Shown here one piece after another: positions 1,682 to 60,899 of a stretch of 64,000 nucleotides of DNA (the first letter of the stretch is position 1; each line of letters opens with the position of its first letter). Made by a program: the position numbers and the translations under genes. Location of the stretch: contig CP092886.1 in NCBI GenBank assembly GCA_030710605.1, positions 48,337,794-48,401,793 on the forward strand. Reading direction: 5' to 3'. Below the pieces are notes generated by a model, which was not told the DNA's origin, did no database searches, and saw only the letters and a list, made by a program, of their open reading frames with translations. Source of the stretch: Cordylochernes scorpioides. Its lineage: Eukaryota; Arthropoda; Arachnida; Pseudoscorpiones; Chernetidae.

Positions 1682-2425
1682 CTAGAAGAATGACCCGACT
1701 TCGCCCGAGAATTCCCTCGAGCGCAATTTCCTTCATACTGAAAGTACATCAATAATAAATAGTAGAAGTGCCATAGAATAGCAATACAGAAGTAACACAA
1801 AAACCACAGGCAAAAAGTGTGTGTGATGGCAAAAATTGTATTATATTAGTGTTTAGGTAATTGATTTAATTATTATTATTATTATATATATATATATTAT
1901 TTTGAAAACCATTTAGTTGTTTCAAAATCAATATAGTTTAAATAGATAGCAGCTTTTCCACCCAACCACCGAGGTACCCGCCCCAGCGCATTAACCCTTG
2001 AAAATGCCTGAGTTGAGTGAGTGACTGCGATGGATCTTAATGCGATGCCCATATTCTCAGTAAGAATAAGATTAAATAGGTTTATAAAAAAATAATCCAA
2101 AATGCTAGCATGTAAATATTTTCTGAAAAATAAAAGAGCACATGGAAATTAGGCAAACATATGTGTTTGCTAATGACTGCGACTGCATTTTAAACGATTA
2201 AAAAAAAAAAAGCCAGAACAAAAATTAGCAAAAAATACGAAAGCCATTATTTACATACAGTAACGCTAATTTTGTAAAGTTTTTTAAAATTGCAATGTGT
2301 GTACTTAACGTAACTTAATAACGAAAATTTCTCTATCGATACTCAATACTTTTGTAAAAAAAATTAACAATCGTGTATAAAAAGATATTTAAAAAAAAAA
2401 GTACGCAAGCAACTTGAAAAAAAAA
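1682..2425 (-). mobile_element. Helitron-like element, copy B, 5'-truncated
   Basis: Same family as copy A; its CTAG end is at 1682-1685, only about 170 bp from the 5' end of copy A. The internal order is the same: poly-A stretches, a GTACGCAAGC segment and the TTTACATACAGTAACG block. Similarity stops near 2425, inside the segment that reads on to TGCAGAACGCTCATTGG in copy A, and LINE sequence follows at once. Either the LINE inserted here or a deletion joined the two. The missing Helitron 5' part does not reappear after the LINE. Confidence 0.55.
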
Positions 2426-2429
2426 AAGC

Positions 2430-4790
2430 AGCTCTTCGTCTTCGCTTCAGGGGAACGTCGTCGAAAACTTTCTACGACAGCGCAGGTCGAATAATTACGG
2501 GACCAGCGGTGAGAGAAATGGCTTTCGTCAACCTAAAGGAGCGCTTTTCCCACCCTTCGTGCTCATCGGAGCACATCTATTGTTTCCTCCTAGCTATGGG
2601 ATCGGCGAGGAAGAGATTTTTGCTGCCATCGGCCGTCTGCCAACTGGGAAAGCGGCCGCGTGGGATGACTTGCCTTGCGAGCTCTTCAGGGGTTTCGAAG
2701 ATTTCTTCGCAAGTGCGCTCCGTCGGGTCTTCGAGGCGTCCCAGTTCTGCGGCGCTCTGCCCTCTTCCATGCGGCGCAGCGAAATTTACCCGATAGAAAA
2801 ACCACACGGTGGTTCAGGCCTAGCCGGACTTCGACCTCTATCATTGCCAACCGACGGACTACAGAGTCATCAGCGGGGTTCTCTACTGGCGACTACGACG
2901 TCATCTCCTGGATATCGTACCTGAATGCCAGAGCAACGCCGTTCCAGGTAGAACACCAGCCTGTAACATAGCCCGCGTAACTGACGAAGTTGCCACTGCC
3001 TGCAGAGATGAAACCCCGCTGGCAGTTGTCGCCACCGACTTAGAGTCAGCGTTTGACACGCTAGACAGAGGCTTCCTGGTGTCAATTCTTCTCTCCGTCG
3101 GTCTGCCGCTGGTCTTCGTGGGGTGGGTGAGTGCTTCTGCTCTACGCTGGGGCCGAGGCGAAGGCGAGAATAGAAGGAATTGGAATAACTCCCCTGTTCC
3201 ACATGCTCAACGGAGTGAGGCAAGGATGCGCTGCCAGCTCAGCGTTCTTCACCATCTCCACCGGTCCCCTCCTGCTTCGCAAGGAGCAGCTACTCGGCTG
3301 GGATAATGTCCTGGCGTACGCCGACGACATCGTCCTACTTATCCGCGAGGATGGGCAGCTAGAGGTCGTCAAGAAGATCTTCGAGTACTTCAGGCATGCG
3401 TCAGGAATAAGAGTCAACTTCGGCAAGAGCCAGGGCCTCTGGTGCGGGATATGGAGGAACCACACCGACTCCCCGTTGGACATCTTCTGGAACAGGGAGA
3501 AAATCAAATCCTAGGGACCATAGTGACCTCTGGTGTGGGAACTTTGGCCCAAGACCAACATCTGCAGGAGTTACTGGAGAGGGCCATTGCTAAGTGGTCC
3601 CCCTTTGTCCGCGGTCTCTCACTTGCTGGTCGAGCAAAACGGCCAGTAGCCTGGTGCTCTCGGCCATCTACTATCACCTCCAGACTTACCTGCCCAGCGA
3701 GACCACCATCGCAAGACTGCAGGTAAGATTGGCCCGATTCGTATGGGGGCACGATCGAACCTCATGACTTCCCGGCAGCATTCTAGCGCGGCCAATCTCC
3801 GTGGAAGGCATGGGAATTCTCGACGTCGGCACTCAGCTCCGGCTTTCGTGCCTCAAGGGCGTCCAGACAGCACTGCGTGGAGGCCGCAACTCTCACTCTT
3901 GGCTCGCCGAGAGCGGGTTGTGGCTGTCTCCTGCGTCTACTCCTGGCACCTGGCTTCCCCCGCGGCGTCGTCGGAGTCTTCACCTCTTCGAAGCTGCCGC
4001 GGAGATCATAGAGCTGAACAACCGGATCCTACAACCAGCACTCCTCCAGGCTCTTCGAGTCGTGGGCGACTGCCGTTTCCTGCGGCCCCCTGAGCTCCTG
4101 GCTCCTACAAGATGGGGGCTGGCGCATTGGAGAACTAACCAGGCTACTACAAATATCAGCATCGCTACGCGTGGCGCCCTCACAGACGTCGCTTCTCTGG
4201 GGATCTTTGCTCACGCCTGGTCACCCTAGAATGCCCGGAGACGTTATCGTGTCGCTAGCCTGGCGAACGCAATCGCGGTGCGCGGGACGACCAACGCCTT
4301 CCAGCGCCTAACAACCGCACTGTCCACCGCATGCTGGAGCGTCCATGCCTGGCTGCACTGCCCATCACCCAGCTGCTAGGACGGTGGCTCCCCCACGTCA
4401 GTATCCCCATCTCTATCAGCTGGTCTTCTCTCCGGCGATGTGCCTTCTCGGGGCACAATGCTGACGTTGCCGTGCGGCTGGCCCTGCATCGCCTGTGGGT
4501 CCGGAGACCTGTCACTGTTTCTGTAGGCGGATCAGGCCAGTCATCGTGGAGGCCCTCAACATCATCCAGCGGCCCCCTGACCTGCAGAGGGGGATCTTTG
4601 GGCATGACCTGGAGGACGACACCTTGGCCATCATGGCGTCTGCCAAGACCCGCATCTACAAGCACTTCCTGGGCCTGGAGATGCAGGGAGTCCAGGGCGA
4701 CCCCCTCATCGTCTGGAGGAGGACCTTATCAAGGTGGTGGAGCCTCCCTAGCTCCTAAAATCATTGTAGATTCCCATATTTTATTCATTT
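2430..4790 (+). pseudogene. LINE copy 1: broken non-LTR reverse transcriptase ORF2
   Basis: Decayed ORF2 of a non-LTR retrotransposon, read across several frames. Recognisable RT pieces in order are a LRPLSLPT-like fingers motif near 2830, motif A ATDLESAFDTLDRGF near 3030-3075, motif B GVRQGCAASSAFF near 3210-3250, and motif C NVLAYADDIVLLIR at 3306-3347. The thumb/C-terminal part follows to about 4200, then a Cys/His-rich segment near 4440-4530 and the C-terminus SRWWSLPSS ending at 4758. The same C-terminus is present in LINE copy 2. The endonuclease domain is absent, so the copy is 5'-truncated. Multiple frameshifts (for example near 2900, 3130 and 3515) make it non-functional. GC content is far above the surrounding DNA. 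The clade is not resolvable by eye; R1/I-like groups are candidates. Confidence 0.8.
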
Positions 4791-4886
4791 TTATTATATA
4801 TATATATAAGACGAATAATCCTTTCAATATATTATAATAACGATTAGATTCGATAAGGATAAGTTTCTTTATTTGTAAAATTAATT

Positions 4887-4919
4887 CGAGCTTTCGGGCG
4901 CAAGCTGCCCTTCTACAGG
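4887..4919 (-). ncRNA. Hammerhead-like motif (family 2), left palindrome arm
   Basis: Mirror copy of the motif at 5358-5390: core CUGUAGA, stem II GGGC/GCCC, GAAA, then AGCUC. Position 6 of the usual CUGANGA core is U, so activity is doubtful. Confidence 0.4.
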
Positions 4920-5357
4920 AATAAAGGATACAATTTCAAATAAACATGTATGTACAAATATATATATTTTCTTTAAATGATATCTTGCTCTGGTCTTGTA
5001 TAGCGTGAGTGGATCACATGCCCGCGTGATTTAGTTTAAATCAAAGAAAAGCCCTGATAAAGAGAGGTGTGTTGCCCCTAAAAATACTGGTCGATTAATA
5101 AACTTATATCCAATATATGCCCCATATCTATCTATACATACATAGATAGATATGGGGCATATATTGGATATAAGTTTATTAATCGGCCAGTATTTCTAGG
5201 GGCAACACGCCTCTCTTTATCAGGGCTTTTCTTTGATTTAAACTAAATCACGCGGGCATGTGATCCACTCACGCTATACAAGACCAGAGCAAGATATCAT
5301 TTAAAGAAAATATATATATTTGTACATACATGTTTATTTGAAATTGTATCCTTTATT

Positions 5358-5390
5358 CCTGTAGAAGGGCAGCTTGCGCCCGAAAGCTCG
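5358..5390 (+). ncRNA. Hammerhead-like motif (family 2), right palindrome arm
   Basis: CCTGTAGAAGGGC, loop AGCTTGC, GCCCGAAA, then AGCTCG. Laid on the hammerhead fold, stem I pairs ATTC (just upstream) with GAAT (just downstream), stem II is GGGC/GCCC, stem III is the self-complementary AGCU, and the cleavage triplet would be CUC. The U-turn reads CUGU instead of CUGA. The same substitution recurs in the copies at 32.4, 36.4, 38.0 and 49.3 kb. Confidence 0.45.
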
Positions 5391-5440
5391 AATTAATTTT
5401 ACAAATAAAGAAACTTATCCTTATCGAATCTAATCGTTAT

Positions 5441-5445
<5 letters not shown>

Positions 5446-5479
<34 letters not shown>
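5446..5479. repeat. (TA)n microsatellite
   Basis: About 17 TA repeats adjoining the right arm of the palindrome. Confidence 0.95.
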
Positions 5480-5482
<3 letters not shown>

Positions 5483-5592
5483 TAGAATTGACTAATTGTC
5501 AATAAAATTATTTCAAATGTCAATGTCTACCGGTAGACTACCCTGCTGGTCCAGGTAGCGCCGGAGGAAAGCAGCCCTCCCCTTCGAACACC

Positions 5593-6040
5593 ATGCCGGC
5601 TGTAACACCATCGCCAGCCGCAGCTTCAGCATCAACTCCAACTGCATCGCCAGCTCCACCTGTAGCTCCTTCAACTGCTGCAGAGACCCTACCTGCTGCT
5701 TTTACGGACCCAGTCCCTCCTACATCAAAGGTGTCCAGCGACGTTCGGAAGAGACAATCATCTTCACAGAAAAAGCTCAACCAGACCCGGCATCAGCTCA
5801 ACGAACTCCTTGAGCGCATTCTCAGCAACATCTTGGACCAGTCTGGGCTCGAAAGAGGTGGTCTTGGAGGCACTAACCTCTATCCCCGGTCTGAAGAGCC
5901 TGCAAAACAAGATGGGGAGCGAGCAGAAGACCGCGCTCAACAATACTGCCCAGAAGCTGATCGACGCCCTGCCCGACTCCAACTCCGCTATTTACAAGCG
6001 CCTATCGGACGTCCGTGTCAAGACGAGGAGCGCCCAATGA
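5593..6040 (+). pseudogene. LINE copy 2 ORF1 (gag-like), frameshifted
   Basis: The open frame begins with an Ala/Pro/Ser/Thr-rich stretch (residues 1-45), then a charged segment (KRQSSSQKKLNQ). The continuing ORF1 frame shifts near 5800 into a frame with LKSLQNKMGSEQKTALNN and ends in KTRSAQ at 6040. Its TGA overlaps the ORF2 ATG as ATGA (6037-6040), an arrangement used for termination-reinitiation in several non-LTR elements. I see no zinc knuckle in what remains, so identification as ORF1 rests on position and the overlap. Confidence 0.55.
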
Positions 6041-8159
6041 GCTTCCTTCAGGCATCCATCAACGCCCGCGGACTCGCCGTTGGCGAGAGGAGCATTGAGC
6101 TCTGTCACTTCCTGCATCCACATCGCGTAGACGTCGCCTTTGTCCAGGAGACCAACGCCAGGTCGAAGGGCGCCATTCAAAATCTGTGTCTGGGCTACAG
6201 CGCCGTCATCGTGCCCCCCCCCGCAGCCCTCAGAGGTTCGGGCCTCGCCAACCTCTTCGCCCCGGGGGTCGCTGTCCTGCGGCAGCGCGTCCTGTGGCCG
6301 GGCAACATCTCCATCGTCTCCATCGACGTCCGTGGCCAGGAAGTGCGCATGATCAACTGTCACCTTTCACACATCCCTCGCGAGCGGCTCGAACAGCTGG
6401 AGTCCATCACGGCAGCCGCAATCCAGGAAGTAGCCTGGGTGGTGGGCGACCTCAACATCGACGAACAAAGCACGAACGACACAACATCCGGCTCGGTGGA
6501 GTCCCTCACGGAGCTGATGGATTAGACATCCCTCGTCGATGCGGCTACCCTCTTTGACGCTAGAAACCTTCTATCCAGAGTGGCCTACTGCGACATCTGA
6601 ATCTATCTATGGAGAAGCTGGTCCAAGATCAAGGCCGAACTCCTGGCAGAGGTGAGATCCCTCCATGTCCCACGCATCGCTGATGACAATCACATCGCGC
6701 GCACCAGGGGGTTTTTGCAGGCCAAACTAGAAGAAGCGTCGTCAGCAGCCGATTATCCATCGCTGCCCGACCTCGGGCGTTCGCTTCGAGCCCGACGGCC
6801 CGCTGGCACGAACATCCGCGATGAGAATGTAAACATCATCGAAGGCGGGGAGCTCCGACGACGAGCATTCTCTATCTTCCAGCGCCGCTTTGCCCGTGGC
6901 TCCAGCGACCCCATCGCCTTCGCTGAGTTTATCCGGGGGACAACCACCACCTTCACCCTGGAAGATGATGATCCACTGCTGCGTCCTGAGATCACCGGCT
7001 CAGAGATCGCGGTGACCATCCGTCGACTGCCCGGCCATCCGCTCGGAAGGGCTCCCGGGTGGGGCGACTTGCCCAGTGAGTTCCTGATCGCCTACGAAAA
7101 TTTCTTCGTAGAGGCTCTAAGGCGAGTCTTCGAGGCCTCCCAACTCCGCGTGGCCTTGCCTTTATCGTTCCGGCGCAGCACCATCTGCCTCGTCCCCAAG
7201 TACAACGGTGGCCCCGGGCTCAGCGGCTTCAGACCAATATCTCTCCCCACGGCGGACTACCGCGTCCTGTGCAACATCCTCCTCCAGCGTCTGCGGACAC
7301 ATCTTCCCGTCTTGGTACCTCGGTGCCAGACGTACGCAGTCCCGAGAATATCTCCCAGTTGGAACGCGGCGCGAATAACCGACGAGGTCGATATGGCTGA
7401 GAGGAACGGGTCGGAGCTGGCTGTCATCTCGACGGACCTAGAATCCGCCTTCGACACCCTGGACCAGTGCTTTCTTGTGTCCCTGATGGTCTCCCTGCGG
7501 TTGCCACCTGCCTTCATCAAGTGGTTTCTCCTCCTGTATGCCGGGGCGGACGCGGCGGTGCGTGCCGGAGGCCTTCACACAAAGCCCTTCCATCTGCTAA
7601 ACGGGGTGAGGAAGGGCTGCGCTGTCAGCGCCGCTGTGTTCAGTCTCGCCACTGGCCCTCTCTTGGTGCGCCTTGAGCGAGCGCTTGGCCCCGGAAACGT
7701 CCTCGCCTACGCCGACGACATCGTGCTGCTCATCAGGCGCGACGAGCTCTTCGACGTGGTGAGCACTATCTTCGAGGACCTCCGGCCTGGCTTCGGGAAT
7801 AAGTGTCAACTTCGCGAAGAGCAGGGGCCTATGGTGCGGCGCTTTGCGGGCCCTCACCGACGCGCCGCTCGGCATCCCCTGGACATCGGGGCAGCTACGG
7901 GTACTGGGTTGCATTATAACACAAGCAAGGACATCCTCCGCCCAGGAACAACATCTCCTCGCACTGCTCGACTTTCAGAGCTGGATCTTCGGGCATGACC
8001 AGGAGAACGACGCCCTGGCCATCCTGGCGTCTTCCAAGACAATCATCTATAAGCACTTCCCCTGGGCCTGGAGATGCAGAGGGTCCAAGAAGACCCCCTC
8101 CTGGTCTGGAGCAGAATCTTCTCTAGGTGGTGGAGCCTCCCCAGCTCATAAACCATTGT
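6037..8159 (+). pseudogene. LINE copy 2 ORF2: endonuclease plus reverse transcriptase, broken
   Basis: The start ATG at 6037 overlaps the ORF1 stop. The N-terminal APE endonuclease (6037-6525) has FVQET with the metal-binding Glu and VGDLNID near the usual GDFN position. The frame then meets TAG at 6523 and TGA at 6598, and the endonuclease C-terminus (SDH motif) appears deleted. The same frame resumes to about 7790 with the RT: FRPISLPTADYRVL (fingers), STDLESAFDTLD (motif A), GVRKGCAVSAAVF (motif B), YADDIVLLIRR (motif C with both catalytic Asp). A frameshift near 7790 moves the protein to the +1 frame (ALTDAPLGIPWTSGQ onward). A large part of the thumb is missing before GHDQENDALAI, and another shift near 8060 leads to the SRWWSLPSS end. 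In life it would have nicked target DNA and reverse-transcribed its own RNA. Confidence 0.85.
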
Positions 8160-8215
8160 AAATTCTCATTACTTTTCATTTATTCATTTAAAATGTATTA
8201 TTGACTAGATTACAA

Positions 8216-23396: not shown

Positions 23397-23400
<4 letters not shown>
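23215..23400 (+). promoter_or_regulatory. Promoter/LTR-like block with TATA box and AATAAA
   Basis: TATATAAAGGGGG at 23234-23246 is a strong TATA box. It is followed by a moderately GC-rich 130 bp and AATAAAAG at about 23379. TATA followed within 150 bp by a polyadenylation signal is an LTR-type arrangement (U3-R). No partner LTR was found. Confidence 0.35.
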
Positions 23401-23434
<34 letters not shown>

Positions 23435-23624
23435 AAATAGTACAAATGTAGTATTGTACTGGGATAAGGTGCATAAATTAAGAAAAAGGCATCTCCTTAT
23501 CGTGCAACTGAAAGTTGCTAATGGCTTGCGCCATCTATCGGAATAAATATCAACTATTCTCGTTGATTTTTTAATTATTCCAGAATTGGCCAAATACCCA
23601 TTCTTGATTAATCAAGAAAAGCTA

Positions 23625-23666
23625 ACCACGGACGCGTTTCGGGCTGTTGGCCCTCATCAGCGTGGT
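23625..23666 (-). ncRNA. Hammerhead ribozyme, intact core (family 1)
   Basis: On the minus strand: stem I ACCACG, CUGAUGA, stem II GGGC-CAACA-GCCC, GAAA, CGC, triplet GUC, and stem I CGTGGT. All invariant core nucleotides (C3 U4 G5 A6, G8 A9, G12 A13 A14, A15.1-U16.1, C17) are present. Stem III is minimal as a monomer, but ACGCGU is self-complementary, so a dimer could build a 6-bp stem III, as known for PLE-type hammerheads. Predicted cleavage lies between minus-strand bases at 23631 and 23630. It lies just 3' of the zinc-knuckle ORF. Confidence 0.85.
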
Positions 23667-23675
23667 GCAAGCTGT

Positions 23676-23737
23676 ACCTCAACGACCAAAAAAAAAATGT
23701 GTCATTAAGGCATCCTGAAAAATCATGTAACGGGTAG
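23676..23737 (-). repeat. 61-bp direct repeat, 3' of the ORF
   Basis: Nearly identical to 25037-25097 (one extra T). On the minus strand it starts CTACCCGTTACATG, contains GGATGCCTTAATGACAC and a T10 run, and ends GGTCGTTGAGG. Confidence 0.95.
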
Positions 23738-23746
23738 CCTGGAAGC

Positions 23747-24964
23747 CTAGAATTTGAGGGCTTTAAGCTTCAAGGTGGGGCAGCTTGAGGCTCTCGCCTC
23801 GTGCTTGTCTGAGAGGCCCTGGGCACAGCAGTTGGCGCACTTGGAAGTGCGCCGGTCGGCAGCGGAGGGGCAGGAACGGCCATCATGGCCGCCTTCACTG
23901 CAGTGGAAGCACTTGGGATCTCTGGTGCATTGGGCAGAGTTGTGGCCGAAGCCACAACAGCGGAAGCAGATTCGTGCGCGGATGGACTCCTCGAAGTTGA
24001 GGATCACTCCATCCACCACGATCCTTCCGCGAATGCCCAGAGCTCTGAAGGTGTTGAGGTCCACCTCGATGAAGGCGGTGCAGGTCCCGTTTCTGGTTGC
24101 AGAACGGTGCGCCACGCTCACCACCTTGTCCCCAGGTAGTTGGCTGACAGCAGGAGTTCCCAGCAGCGTCTCTTCAATGGTGGAGTTGGATGTTTCCTCA
24201 TCCACTTTGAAGAGGCAGATGCGAGGAAGGATCACCTTCTGTTGGCGGACCTTCATTCCCGTTAGCTTGCTGGCCAGGGAGGTTGTAATCTCAGGGATGA
24301 TGTCGGGATTGCTGGAGTGGAGGACCAGCTTCCCCTTGGTGCGGAGAGAGGCCCAAACACCTTGGGGTAGAGTGTGGGCAGCGCGGACAGCCTTGTAAAT
24401 CTCCCTTGGGTCAGCCTGTGGGTCATCAGAAACGACCACTGTGTGGGCCGCCGATTTTTCCCCATGGAGGACCACTTGGGCGGCCGCAGGCTTGGGTACG
24501 CGGGAGGGCACAGGTTTTGCGGGACCTTTAAAGTTGGTCCTCTTTGCGGGAGGGTAGGGAGCCTCAGGGTGCTTCCTCTTGGTTGGAGCGGGAGTGGCGG
24601 GCATGGTGGGGTCAGTCTGGGAGCTGGTTTCCTTTAAGCAGGGAGCAGGGCTGGTTTGGGTGCTGTGGCAGGCAGTCAGGGGCTTGTTGGCATCTTCGTC
24701 CAGCTCCTTAAAGGACGCGAGGATGCCAGAGAGGCTCTCCACCTCAGCAAGGAGGGCATTGATCTGCCCGGACCACAACCTGATGAAGCCGGTCATGGCA
24801 GCGTACAGTTGCATCAGGGTTCCAGGACCAGAGGACGTCATGGAATCCCTGAAGGGATTCAGCGCCTCATCGTTCTCCTGTTGCAGTTGAGCGAGGGTCA
24901 CAAGGGGCTTCGCGGCATTCTCGGCGTTCTCGGCCTCCTTCTTCTTCTTCCTAGAGGGAGCCAT
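23747..24964 (-). CDS. Gag-like zinc-knuckle protein (retrotransposon ORF1), intact
   Basis: 405 codons without interruption, from ATG (CTGCCATGG) to TAG. The N-terminus is Lys-rich (SRKKKKEAENAENAAK), residues about 20-95 could be helical, about 100-165 are Pro/Thr-rich and basic, and about 175-330 are a folded-looking region with VVVSDDPQADPREIYKAVR. Three C-terminal zinc knuckles: CFRCCGFGHNSAQC (333-346, CX2CX4HX4C), CFHCSEGGHDGRSC (352-365, same spacing), and an extended third CANC...H...C (376-395). This domain order is that of ORF1 proteins of non-LTR elements (I/Jockey/R1-like), which bind element RNA in particles. No RT ORF follows: the frame ends 10 bp before a 61-bp repeat and then a hammerhead. 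It has stayed open while every other retroelement ORF nearby is broken, so it is young or under selection. Confidence 0.8.
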   Translation of the reverse strand: MAPSRKKKKEAENAENAAKPLVTLAQLQQENDEALNPFRDSMTSSGPGTLMQLYAAMTGFIRLWSGQINALLAEVESLSGILASFKELDEDANKPLTACHSTQTSPAPCLKETSSQTDPTMPATPAPTKRKHPEAPYPPAKRTNFKGPAKPVPSRVPKPAAAQVVLHGEKSAAHTVVVSDDPQADPREIYKAVRAAHTLPQGVWASLRTKGKLVLHSSNPDIIPEITTSLASKLTGMKVRQQKVILPRICLFKVDEETSNSTIEETLLGTPAVSQLPGDKVVSVAHRSATRNGTCTAFIEVDLNTFRALGIRGRIVVDGVILNFEESIRARICFRCCGFGHNSAQCTRDPKCFHCSEGGHDGRSCPSAADRRTSKCANCCAQGLSDKHEARASSCPTLKLKALKF

Positions 24965-25036
24965 GGCAGGAGCAGGAGAGCAAAGATGTGCACAGGTAGA
25001 GAGCTAGCTGCGAACTCGATGAAAACGAAAACAACG

Positions 25037-25097
25037 ACCTCAACGACCAAAAAAAAAAGTGTCATTAAGGCATCCTGAAAAATCATGTAACGGGTAG
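25037..25097 (-). repeat. 61-bp direct repeat, 5' of the ORF
   Basis: Partner of 23676-23737. It lies about 70 bp upstream of the ORF start codon and would be part of its leader. Confidence 0.95.
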
Positions 25098-25178
25098 TTA
25101 AGGCCAGAATTGCGTGAGAACGCTACACAATGTGAAAAAATAGTACAAATGTAGTATTGTACTGGGATAAGGTGCATA

Positions 25179-25445
25179 AATTAAGAAAAAGGCATCTCCT
25201 TATCGTGCAACTGAAAGTTGCTAATGGCTTGCGCCATCTATCGGAATAAATATCAACTATTCTCGTTGATTTTTTAATTATTCCAGTGATCCGTGGTTAG
25301 CTTTTCTTGATTAATCAAGAATGGGTATTTGGCCAATTCTGGAATAATGAAAAAATCAACGAGAATAGTTGATATTTATTCCGATAGATGGCGCAAGCCA
25401 TTAGCAACTTTCAGTTGCACGATAAGGAGATGCCTTTTTCTTAAT
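25179..25445. repeat. Terminal inverted repeat of the composite element
   Basis: Arms 25179-25286 and 25339-25445, about 107 bp, with almost no differences; spacer 52 bp. The spacer carries CCGTGGTTAGC at 25291, which is the hammerhead 3' product sequence in plus orientation starting at the predicted cleavage point. Confidence 0.9.
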
Positions 25446-25454
25446 ATATATATA

Positions 25455-58140: not shown

Positions 58141-58747
58141 AAGGCGACACATTGCTCACAACTACATCGGTTCACCTTTATATGATGGAAAGGAGACAAG
58201 AGAGATAAGACTACCTTGTTCGATGTAAGATACCATCTACGAAGCTTTACATTTACCACCAAATATTAAATTCAAAGAAATATATAAGAAAATACATCTG
58301 TTGTAATACGCCAGTTCTCGATTTTATCTTTGTTTAGTAAATAAACCTATTTTAAAATAGTCGCTTAAATATTTACGTTTACCTGTTTTAAGATTGAGAA
58401 TACACATACTTATTTTTCAGCGACAGAGGGCGATAAGTTATATTGATGATATTATACATATAGAGACATCTCAACATTTTTTAAAACTCTCTATCTTGAT
58501 TTAACTGGACTCCAGTCGCCAGCTGTCCAGGTTGGCCTTCAAACATAACATCTAATGGTGCTGGACATCCAGTTTATTAGGTGTCGCGCTTTTTTAGTTT
58601 GAAATTCATTTTTTTTTTTTAAGAAAATAAAGACAATTGACTATTTTAAATACTTATTTTGACATCTCATCAATTATATAGCTGCATAATTCTCACTATG
58701 TAAACAGATATTTAGTCCGGAAAGGCGTGAGAACGCCAATCAATGTG

Positions 58748-58786
58748 CCTACGCTGACGAGGGCTAACAGCCCGAAACGGGTAGGT
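58748..58786 (+). ncRNA. Hammerhead ribozyme relic (family 1)
   Basis: Stem I CCTAC/GTAGG, core CUGACGA intact, stem II GGGC-TAACA-GCCC, GAAA, then CGG directly before stem I. Compared with the 23.6-kb copy, about 4 nt including the cleavage triplet are deleted, so it has a complete catalytic core without a cleavage site. Confidence 0.7.
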
Positions 58787-58809
58787 ATTTAGATTTTCTT
58801 GATAAATCA

Positions 58810-60676
58810 CACACACACACACACACACAAAGCCTTTATTAAGACGTTAGTCTTATACAGATTCTCCGTACAAGGTGCAATAACAGGAAAAGAGCAGCAC
58901 AGGAAACCAGTAGTTCCGCAACTATATACAATTATTAGTAATAAGGAAAAGTAAGATTTAATATGAAAGGTCGACGCCATCGCCTCAAGTCTTCAATTCC
59001 ATAAGCGCGGAGCAGAAATAGGGACTAAGTTATTTAGTTCGCCATAAATATAGCATCCAGACACAAAAAGGAGGTTTACTCCAGGACAGCCATCCCTCTC
59101 ACCAGCTCCGCAATCTCATCGTCGACCAACACGATGGCCCCTCGATGTTTCGTCATCATTCTGAGGTGTAAGAACAATAGCTTCCGAGTTCTCTTTTCTC
59201 CCTCTTTACACCTACTGCCTTGTAAAAATTATATAGGGCCTGTGAGCAACTAGTCTACTTGTTTGGGCACTGGTTAACATCGTTTGGATTGACCTAAGTT
59301 GGCTGGTGTCTACCGTTGAAAAGAATGTCCTTCTCTCCTCGCTAATATATTGGCATTCATAGATATAATGAGATAGTTCAGTTTCCATATTTTCTTTGCA
59401 GAGATCACAAATCTTATCACCCTCCCTGAAAATTTGTGTATGGTTTTCCTTGAAAAACGAATAATGTATTCTCTGTTGTGCGATATAGCGTTTTACTGGG
59501 AATGGAAAGTTGCTAAGTGAATAGTTTTTCAATTCGGAATGAACTGTGTAAATACTTATAGTGGGGGTAGAATTTAGAATTCTCTATTTTTGCCTGGTCA
59601 CTTTGAATAGATTGTTCTATTGTAATTTTAGTTATTAAAGGTATTTCGTGCCGGATAATCCTTGCATCGTTGGCGTTAATTAACCAAGAAAATCCTGTTG
59701 AGTTGAGTATGTTGGCCAAACTTTCCGCAAGTCCAATATATATATTTCTATTTCTTGATATCTCATATAGTTGAGCTAAGCATATATGGGGGAGTCGGCT
59801 GCTGTTCATTTTTAGAATTCTAAGCCAGAACCCGAGTGCAAGTTTCAGCACCGTAACTCCCAGTGACGTTCTTCCGCACTCCATACGTAGAATAAAACCA
59901 GGAGTATATCTGGGTAAATTTAAAAGTCTCCGTAAAAAATTGTCTTGTACCCTGTCAACCAAGTGTTTTTGGTTGTTTGCCCAAATTGGAGCTGCGTAGA
60001 GCAAGGTTGACAGAGCCATTGAGTCTAGGAGCTTGAGTGAGGATCTGATAGAGTTGATTCTTGTTTTAGTCGATATTGCCCAGACCGCATTAATAGCATT
60101 TAGCGCCTTGTTTTTAAAATGCTTTGCCGCCTGTTGAGTTGAGTTTGACGCTGTCAGCTGGTAACCCAGATACGTGTATTTAGATGTTATAGTGAGAGGC
60201 AATTGTCCCCAGAACCAAACATCCGATCGGGCCTTTCGACCTCCATTTCTAAACACCATAACCTTTGATTTGCTCTGGTTCAGCGTTAAAAAATTATCTT
60301 CGAAGTATTTTCTGAGTACATTGATCTTTTTTTGTAAATTTATCTTGGATTCTTCGAGAAGTACGATGTCGTCTGCGAACAGAAGTAGATGTATATTTCC
60401 ATAATTCGGTAAATAAATACTTGGCAAATCAGCGTCATCGTACAGAGAAACCAAGTCGTTTAGAAAAAGGATAAATAGATAAGGTGACAGGGGTTCACCT
60501 TGTAGAACACCAGCTGATATTTTTATAAATTCTGTAAGTGATCCGTTCCATCTTATTGTTGCTGACATTTGATTATAATAGCTTTGTATAAGGCTGATAA
60601 ATCGGGTACTTAAACCGTAAACTGTCAACTTCTTCCAAAGCAGGGAGTGTGGTACTGTATCAAAGGCCTTTTTGAC
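58810..60676 (-). mobile_element. LINE-X copy 4, 5'-truncated, 19-bp target duplications
   Basis: Flanks 58791-58809 and 60677-60695 are AGATTTTCTTGATAAATCA and the same with one G/A change. Minus-strand 3' end: CTTAATAAAGGCTTTG followed by (TG)n. The 5' end is truncated at RT motif A (FDTVPHSLLWKKL). The insertion interrupts the hammerhead unit. Confidence 0.92.
59212..60670 (-). pseudogene. LINE-X RT palm to C-terminus, one frameshift
   Basis: First frame (60670 to 59513): AFDTVPH motif A, GVLQGEPLSPYLFILFLND motif B, LLLFADDIVLL motif C, SKSKVMVFRNGG, YLGYQLT, YAAPIWANNQKHLVDRVQD, FLRRLLNLPRYTPGFILR. A frameshift near 59520-59530 moves to the second frame, which holds FPFPVKRYIAQQRIHYSFF and the finger CDLCKENMETELSHYIYEC, ending at 59212. 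Fingers and endonuclease are missing by truncation. The family has no RNase H here. It is the most complete LINE-X palm in the window and the reference for the other copies. Confidence 0.88.
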
Positions 60677-60899
60677 AGATTTTCTTGGTAAATCAAGAAA
60701 GGGTATTTGGCCAATTCTGGATTAATCAAAAATCAATGATTAGTTGATATTTATTCCGATAGATGGCGCAAGCCATCATCAACTTTTAGTGGCACGATCA
60801 GGAGATGCCCGTTTTCTTAAATCTTCACCTGATCCAAATACAATTTCACTTTTGTACTATTTTACATATGGAGAGTTGTTTTCATAACCATTCTTTTGA

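Follow-up and report, generated by a model that had tools for sequence, protein, structure and literature searches.

An ORF1-only retroposon nested in hammerhead ribozyme repeats of the pseudoscorpion Cordylochernes scorpioides

Anatomy of the locus

A 64,000-bp stretch of the genome of the pseudoscorpion Cordylochernes scorpioides (contig CP092886.1, positions 48,337,794 to 48,401,793 of the forward strand; hereafter the window) was analysed, with attention to an open reading frame (ORF) for a gag-like protein that lies inside a repeat unit with a hammerhead ribozyme (HHR) motif. The original prediction had the anatomy of this locus right: a 405-codon zinc-knuckle ORF, 61-bp direct repeats and an HHR motif, all on the minus strand. 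The ORF very probably belongs to a non-autonomous, ORF1-only (gag-only) retroposon without long terminal repeats (non-LTR) that was inserted into a tandem, retrozyme-like hammerhead unit.

Read 5' to 3' on the minus strand, the locus starts with an inverted copy of the unit tail (25289-25449, plus orientation), which begins about 2 nt or less from the site where the ribozyme is predicted to cleave. A leader that is a direct partial copy of the tail (25131-25286) and a 33-bp unit segment found at the same place in other HHR loci (25098-25130) come next, and the 5' copy of the 61-bp segment (25037-25097) ends at the insertion site, GGTCGTTGAGGT. Between this target and the element lies a 20-bp filler (25017-25036) that differs in every copy read. 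The conserved 52-bp core of the 5' untranslated region (UTR) of the element (24965-25016) follows, and 56 bp including the start codon are identical to a dispersed copy, L028. The frame for ORF1, a 405-amino-acid gag-like protein with C-terminal zinc knuckles, is open from 24964 to 23747, in agreement with the claim that it is intact; its identification draws on this open frame, a CCHC alignment and a 13-member alignment. The element ends nine bases past the stop codon (23738-23746), where the homology of other copies to the window stops (at 23738), and the remainder of a 212-bp 3' UTR is missing. The 3' copy of the 61-bp segment (23676-23737) adjoins the hammerhead (23611-23676) as in plain units, and the unit tail past the cleavage site (23428-23630) runs into a (TA)n tract. 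The two 61-bp segments align with 61 matches, no mismatches and one gap.

A single CTGATGA..GAAAC core is found in the 23.2-25.6 kb stretch and in its relatives, here at 23636-23660 on the minus strand. The motif has a very short stem III and predicted cleavage between 23631 and 23630. Rfam HH9 covers 23611-23676 with an E value of 8e-4 and 26.5 bits, which is under the gathering score of 52, and no Rfam family reached its gathering score in the window. As the HHR region folded no better than shuffled sequences (z -0.61; 53 of 200 shuffles were as good), the ribozyme call rests on the core motif together with the sub-threshold Rfam match. Plain units consist of the 33-bp segment, the 61-bp segment, the hammerhead and the tail, are 338-350 bp long and occur eight in tandem in locus L023, with successive sites spaced 338 bp apart. 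The tail and its leader copies match over about 160 bp. The host unit is a short tandem repeat with a type I hammerhead, below the Rfam cut-off, and it fits the structural description of metazoan retrozymes in the available text of PMC7229834. A frame with reverse transcriptase plus GIY-YIG, as in Penelope-like elements, was absent from 23398-25445, and the host unit measures only about 340 bp. At 25289-25449, on the 5' side of the HHR unit, the inverted tail copy looks as if a complementary DNA had ended at the cleaved 5' end; inverted units of this kind also occur in L011, L012, L013 and L015.

Elsewhere in the window, the unit at 13.8 kb has the same order, as had been stated, and is 77% alike over 145 bp. 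The supposed ribozyme-only element at 58.7 kb turned out to be an HHR unit split by a 5'-truncated long interspersed nuclear element (LINE) with a reverse transcriptase domain. This second element type nested in the same repeat lies on the minus strand at 58700-60863 (RVT_1, E 6e-24) and has a (CA)n end. The unit resumes at 60678-60863, and an 18-bp target-site duplication (TSD) encloses the LINE, its two copies (58792-58809 and 60678-60695) agreeing in 17 of 18 bases.

The ORF1-only element family

The genome (2.62 Gb in 24 contigs) was searched with 23398-25445 as query, and the best 40 of 4,776 scored candidates were taken. These best 40 fell into two classes, one with the ORF flanked on both sides by HHR-unit sequence and the other with the ORF but no HHR sequence. 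The family layout is a 5' UTR, ORF1 and a 212-bp 3' UTR without poly-A, about 1.5 kb from TSD to TSD. Copies other than that of the window continue past the stop codon as CTTCCAGGACCTCC... for about 212 bp, and the last 50-60 bp of the element run GGGCTAGAAGACCC...CTCAACTAAC. The 3' UTR ending TTAGCCCGGATTCTCAAC(TAA) was present after the ORF in all 19 loci read, which comprised 15 HHR loci (L010-L024) and four others (L025-L028). In the latter four the entire element occurs by itself, flanked by duplications such as GAAGTTTTTGTCT and CCTTCCCTTTGCATT. An exact 21-mer from the 3' end occurred at 118 places in the genome, and 406 places were found when up to two mismatches were allowed; the reversed control gave none in either case. 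Of the first 30 exact places, 27 had ORF1-element sequence directly upstream and three were truncated to the last 52-63 bp.

TSDs of 9-17 bp bounded 28 non-redundant loci (TSD of at least 8 bp; L022, L029, L035 and L043 were dropped as repeats), and the fillers between TSD and 5' UTR differed in all 28, one of them being empty. Copies bounded by TSDs contain an ORF1-type gag, and no ORF2 was seen in them. A tblastn search of 53 loci with the endonuclease and reverse transcriptase proteins of the window LINEs placed no reverse transcriptase inside the elements, although a very different enzyme could be missed; the sole location identified was outside the element, 3.5 kb upstream in L025. The family has both TSDs and 5'-truncated copies (three of 30). 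We infer that the element moves by target-primed reverse transcription, with which 5'-truncated copies with TSDs are consistent, and with reverse transcriptase probably supplied in trans by a LINE that would recognise the 3' end of the element.

Several further features of the copies were observed. The fillers at the 5' ends of L010-L057, different in 28 of 28 loci, contain 50% T and 12% A. At L037 (1197-1521, 3' end forward) a single TSD encloses a chimeric insert composed of an HHR fragment with tail, a tRNA-like piece recognised by eye and the last 63 bp of the ORF1-element 3' UTR. This insert looks like the product of template switching between RNAs; ARAGORN did not find the suspected transfer RNA gene. 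ORF1 elements directly adjoin one another head to tail in L038, L072, L073 and L050, the last of which includes a second, diverged ORF1 (70% identity).

Pfam gave no match to ORF1 at E below 0.1, and Pfam and PDB searches returned nothing beyond a weak alignment of the CCHC knuckles to retroviral nucleocapsid (E 0.016). A search of viral contigs found no relative. In the 13-member alignment, identity to the window protein was 81-93%, with a hypervariable N-terminal part and a conserved C-terminal part. ORF1 shares 27-31% identity (E 3e-4) with another zinc-knuckle ORF1, that of a LINE adjacent to L040, and in this LINE the following ORF encodes an APE-type endonuclease (PF14529, E 7e-14). The ratio of nonsynonymous to synonymous substitution rates (dN/dS) across copies, a check that had been proposed for the ORF, was 0.36-0.54 by dS bin in 231 non-independent pairs of 22 intact ORFs; these 22 came from 40 kept rows, six of which had a match beginning at base 44 and were not judged for intactness. 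From these ratios we conclude that selection has acted on the ORF1 protein, as would suit an element that depends on or assists a partner.

Several candidates for this partner gained no support. L037, L048 and L052, in which the 3' UTR is reduced to its last 52-63 bp, were judged by eye to be 5'-truncated copies with TSDs. Two LINEs of the window, at 5506-8161 and 2368-4837, had no TSD longer than 10 bp and tails unlike that of the element (33 and 213 of 300 shuffles were as good). No zinc-knuckle ORF1 was noticed ahead of the LINE at 5506-8161, which has an RVT_1 match (E 1e-18) and a weak, below-cut-off endonuclease match (PF03372, E 0.008). A long near-perfect palindrome followed by (TA)n occupies 4790-5470, between two LINE-like stretches.

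Target sites and alternative readings

The sites used by the family were determined from 3' flanks. Of the 118 exact ends, the first 100 on the list (contigs C1-C19) were taken and 99 of these were read; 30 came from the first places, 60 were further ones and nine were from earlier loci. L010-L024 are the best matches to the query and are biased to HHR context because that query contained the HHR; they were used for structure and for the tree and stand outside the count that follows, except that six of them (L010, L011, L013, L020, L021 and L022) are listed exact 3' ends and so are counted in the 99. Twenty-five of these 99 ends sit in an HHR unit, and the first flank base always falls within 8 bp, at unit positions 281-288 of 342. 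All 25 insertions have the orientation of the ribozyme and lie just 5' of the hammerhead, and no flank matched another part of the unit. When up to three mismatches were allowed, the HHR site pattern was counted 21,255 times in the genome, which is a minimum where units have diverged, and random insertion would place about 0.27 of the 99 in 21,255 whole units, compared to the 25 observed. Exact ORF1-HHR joints numbered 21 genome-wide. As the joint recurs in this way, it is not a one-off, which answers the question that the original prediction had left to a genome search for copies. Other targets also recurred among the 99 flanks, in clusters of eight, eight, six and six, and 33 flanks had no partner. 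Three further ends (L038, L074 and L075) have the TTGAGGTAC target of the HHR site, but with other DNA after it.

TATA-like boxes lie upstream of many of the non-HHR targets, hinting at insertion into promoters. A TATAWA motif with no more than one mismatch begins 19-23 bp upstream of the TSD in 11 of the 16 non-HHR 5' flanks, and six of these are exact. Shuffling of the letters gave means of 2.1 and 0.21, and the observed counts were reached in none of 2000 shuffles; none of 1000 reached the TATAWA count after correction for the choice of the best 5-bp window. Among 122 copies genome-wide with an exact 5' UTR core, TATAWA was located 35-65 bp upstream in 20, 66-96 bp upstream in 12 and 97-127 bp upstream in seven (Fisher p 0.013 for 20 versus 7), a coarse count that is weaker than the test of 16 flanks. 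The boxes in these flanks, the shuffle tests and the genome-wide excess nearest the element speak for an element that selects promoters, inserting 19-23 bp downstream of a TATA-like box, such that the HHR site would be the transcription start of the retrozyme unit. However, the HHR site has no TATA box, with CTTAATG at that offset, and five of the 16 flanks (L028, L033, L037, L050 and L057) also lack one. Furthermore, the flanks used for the test were the ones in which the pattern had been noticed, a number of TSD boundaries were placed by hand, certain flanks belong to a common repeat family (L025 with L049; L052 and L056 are alike by eye), and the genome-wide counts show an unexplained imbalance between forward and reverse strands. 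We therefore regard promoter selection as a tentative reading that is somewhat more likely to be wrong than right.

The region from roughly -9 to +4 is the melted part at an RNA polymerase II start. If the TATA rule holds, the TSDs would cover roughly this region, and the HHR site would mark the start site of the unit, with GGTCGTTGAGGTAC as the putative start in plain units. A broader version joins these elements. In it, the gag-only family would read promoters, integrating about 20 bp downstream of TATA-like boxes where RNA polymerase II opens the DNA and borrowing host promoters; its favourite host would be the HHR retrozyme, with a putative start about 25 bp upstream of the ribozyme core; and the ribozyme would cut the transcript of the inserted gene at a fixed 3' end, so that the resulting RNAs code for gag and are processed by the ribozyme. 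Taken as a whole, this chain of steps is doubtful.

The window copy differs from the rest of the family at its 3' side. Its 5' joint is the usual one (..GGTCGTTGAGGT followed by filler), the 3' UTR is lost and a second 61-bp segment comes next. Only this copy and its segmental duplicate show the loss; the 3' UTR is present in the 15 other HHR copies and the four dispersed ones that were read. The duplicate, L009, lies about 90 kb away, has flanks of 97-98% identity and carries a further deletion. The most likely explanation is that, after insertion, one deletion joined a point 9 bp beyond the stop codon to the 61-bp segment of an adjacent plain unit. Such an event would have removed the 3' UTR, TSD, ribozyme and tail, so creating the 61-bp direct repeat, and on the sequence it would yield the window arrangement exactly. 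The two near-identical flanks and the missing 3' UTR could instead reflect insertion of a 3'-truncated RNA with a 61-bp TSD, as opposed to an insertion with a 13-bp TSD followed by deletion. This explanation, which corresponds to the unusually long target duplication proposed earlier, is unlikely and was judged inferior to deletion: TSDs elsewhere are 9-17 bp in the 28 non-redundant loci, the 5' joint is at the usual site of the family, and plain units all contain the 61-bp segment as a regular component. The lack of a poly-A or LINE 3' UTR after the stop had been taken to argue against a standard insertion, but this argument fails because the family 3' UTR has no poly-A and the window copy has lost its 3' UTR.

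The relationship between copies was assessed from their joints, flanks and ORFs. The 25 HHR joints contain 14 different strings between the element and GAGG (hand count), and near-duplicate joints occur on the same contig in L021/L022, L086/L087 and L111/L112. Only one pair among the 15 HHR loci, L021/L022, shares both flanks over more than 600 bp, and this is a segmental duplicate. A tree was built from 40 ORFs, of which 19 were HHR-sited, 20 dispersed and one unassigned; L009 (a duplicate), L029, L035 and L043 (the same places as L026, L024 and L018) and L046, L051, L054 and L058 (partial) were left out. HHR-sited and dispersed ORFs were intermixed and thus polyphyletic, with 10 label changes, at least five of them forced by starred branches, and supported mixed groups included L053 with L055 and L017 with L028 and L050. 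As the copies have TSDs, differing 5' fillers and a mixed ORF tree, we conclude that most HHR-sited copies probably represent separate insertions, with local segmental duplication on top, rather than the spread of an HHR element that had taken up a gene.

Some results weigh against this interpretation. An automatic TSD search over 38 rows left four without a TSD and three with 6 bp only, and several HHR copies share a 3' joint string (for example, six have CTCGTTGAGG and five CCTGGTCGTTGAGG). HHR labels are somewhat clustered on the tree (19 and 32 of 500 shuffles were as low; the shuffled mean was 13), so there may have been limited co-amplification. For the deletion proposed in the window copy, neither an intermediate nor clear microhomology was found, and none of the first 30 3' ends proved to belong to an autonomous LINE that could be the partner.

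The alternative that an HHR retrozyme captured ORF1 once and that the composite spread as a coding retrozyme, perhaps via a circular RNA encoding its own binding protein, draws on the fixed place and orientation of the composite, the intact ORF in the window copy and several HHR-sited copies and the weak clustering of labels, but it is very improbable, as TSDs, fillers and joints differ between copies, the ORFs intermix on the tree, and the 15 HHR loci mapped contain no tandem ORF1-bearing units even though plain tandem units are common there (eight in L023). ORF and ribozyme unit, given this polyphyletic placement and these differing joints, do not appear to descend and move together, and the composite is weakened as a mobile unit. 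The arrangement is a recurrent nested insertion at one exact spot, not a new kind of ribozyme element. Of the two readings in the original prediction, a LINE ORF1 insertion was therefore nearly right, except that the insert is an ORF1-only element and not a LINE fragment; a new hammerhead element carrying a gag-like gene is made unlikely by the same joints, fillers and tree and by the element standing alone elsewhere between TSDs.

Relation to known elements

Gag-only non-LTR elements are rare. As far as the available text of the sources goes, the element is closest in kind to HAL1 (half-L1), a non-autonomous LINE derivative of mammals that encodes only ORF1p (PMC5753468), and to HeT-A of Drosophila telomeres, a gag-only non-LTR element without ORF2 that depends on the enzymes of partner elements (PMC11698117). 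It shares with HAL1 the ORF1-only, LINE-like organisation and with HeT-A a gag gene and the lack of ORF2. HAL1 derives from L1, whereas the element described here has a zinc-knuckle ORF1, no poly-A and strongly preferred targets; HeT-A occupies chromosome ends in head-to-tail arrays, whereas the element lies at internal sites with TSDs, often in other repeats. HAL1 uses a poly-A tail. Target-specific non-LTR elements of the R1 clade combine a CCHC gag-type ORF1, TSDs of roughly such length and repeated hits at one repeat site. Unlike these, the element has no reverse transcriptase for clade placement and uses several different target sites.

The host unit, at 338-350 bp, resembles the metazoan non-LTR retrozymes (Cervera and de la Pena 2020; PMC7229834) to the extent that the available text describes them. 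Retrozymes are non-coding, however, and the ORF here is an insert and not part of the unit. Penelope-like elements with hammerheads, as described in the available part of PMC11167929, have partial tandem copies with inverted pieces and AT-rich targets in common with the unit, and the minimal hammerhead variant found here resembles theirs. They differ in that no reverse transcriptase or GIY-YIG frame was seen in the HHR unit.

In the literature searched, to the extent of its available text, we found no description of a gag-only non-LTR element with such a site preference for a ribozyme repeat. The locus is a caution that repeated nested insertion can place a coding ORF within a ribozyme unit. 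Given the hundreds of copies, the clear TSDs and the presence of filled as well as empty sites in a single genome, the insertion cue of the family, sequence or open promoter, becomes testable, as does whether a ribozyme beside a retroposon shapes its RNA.
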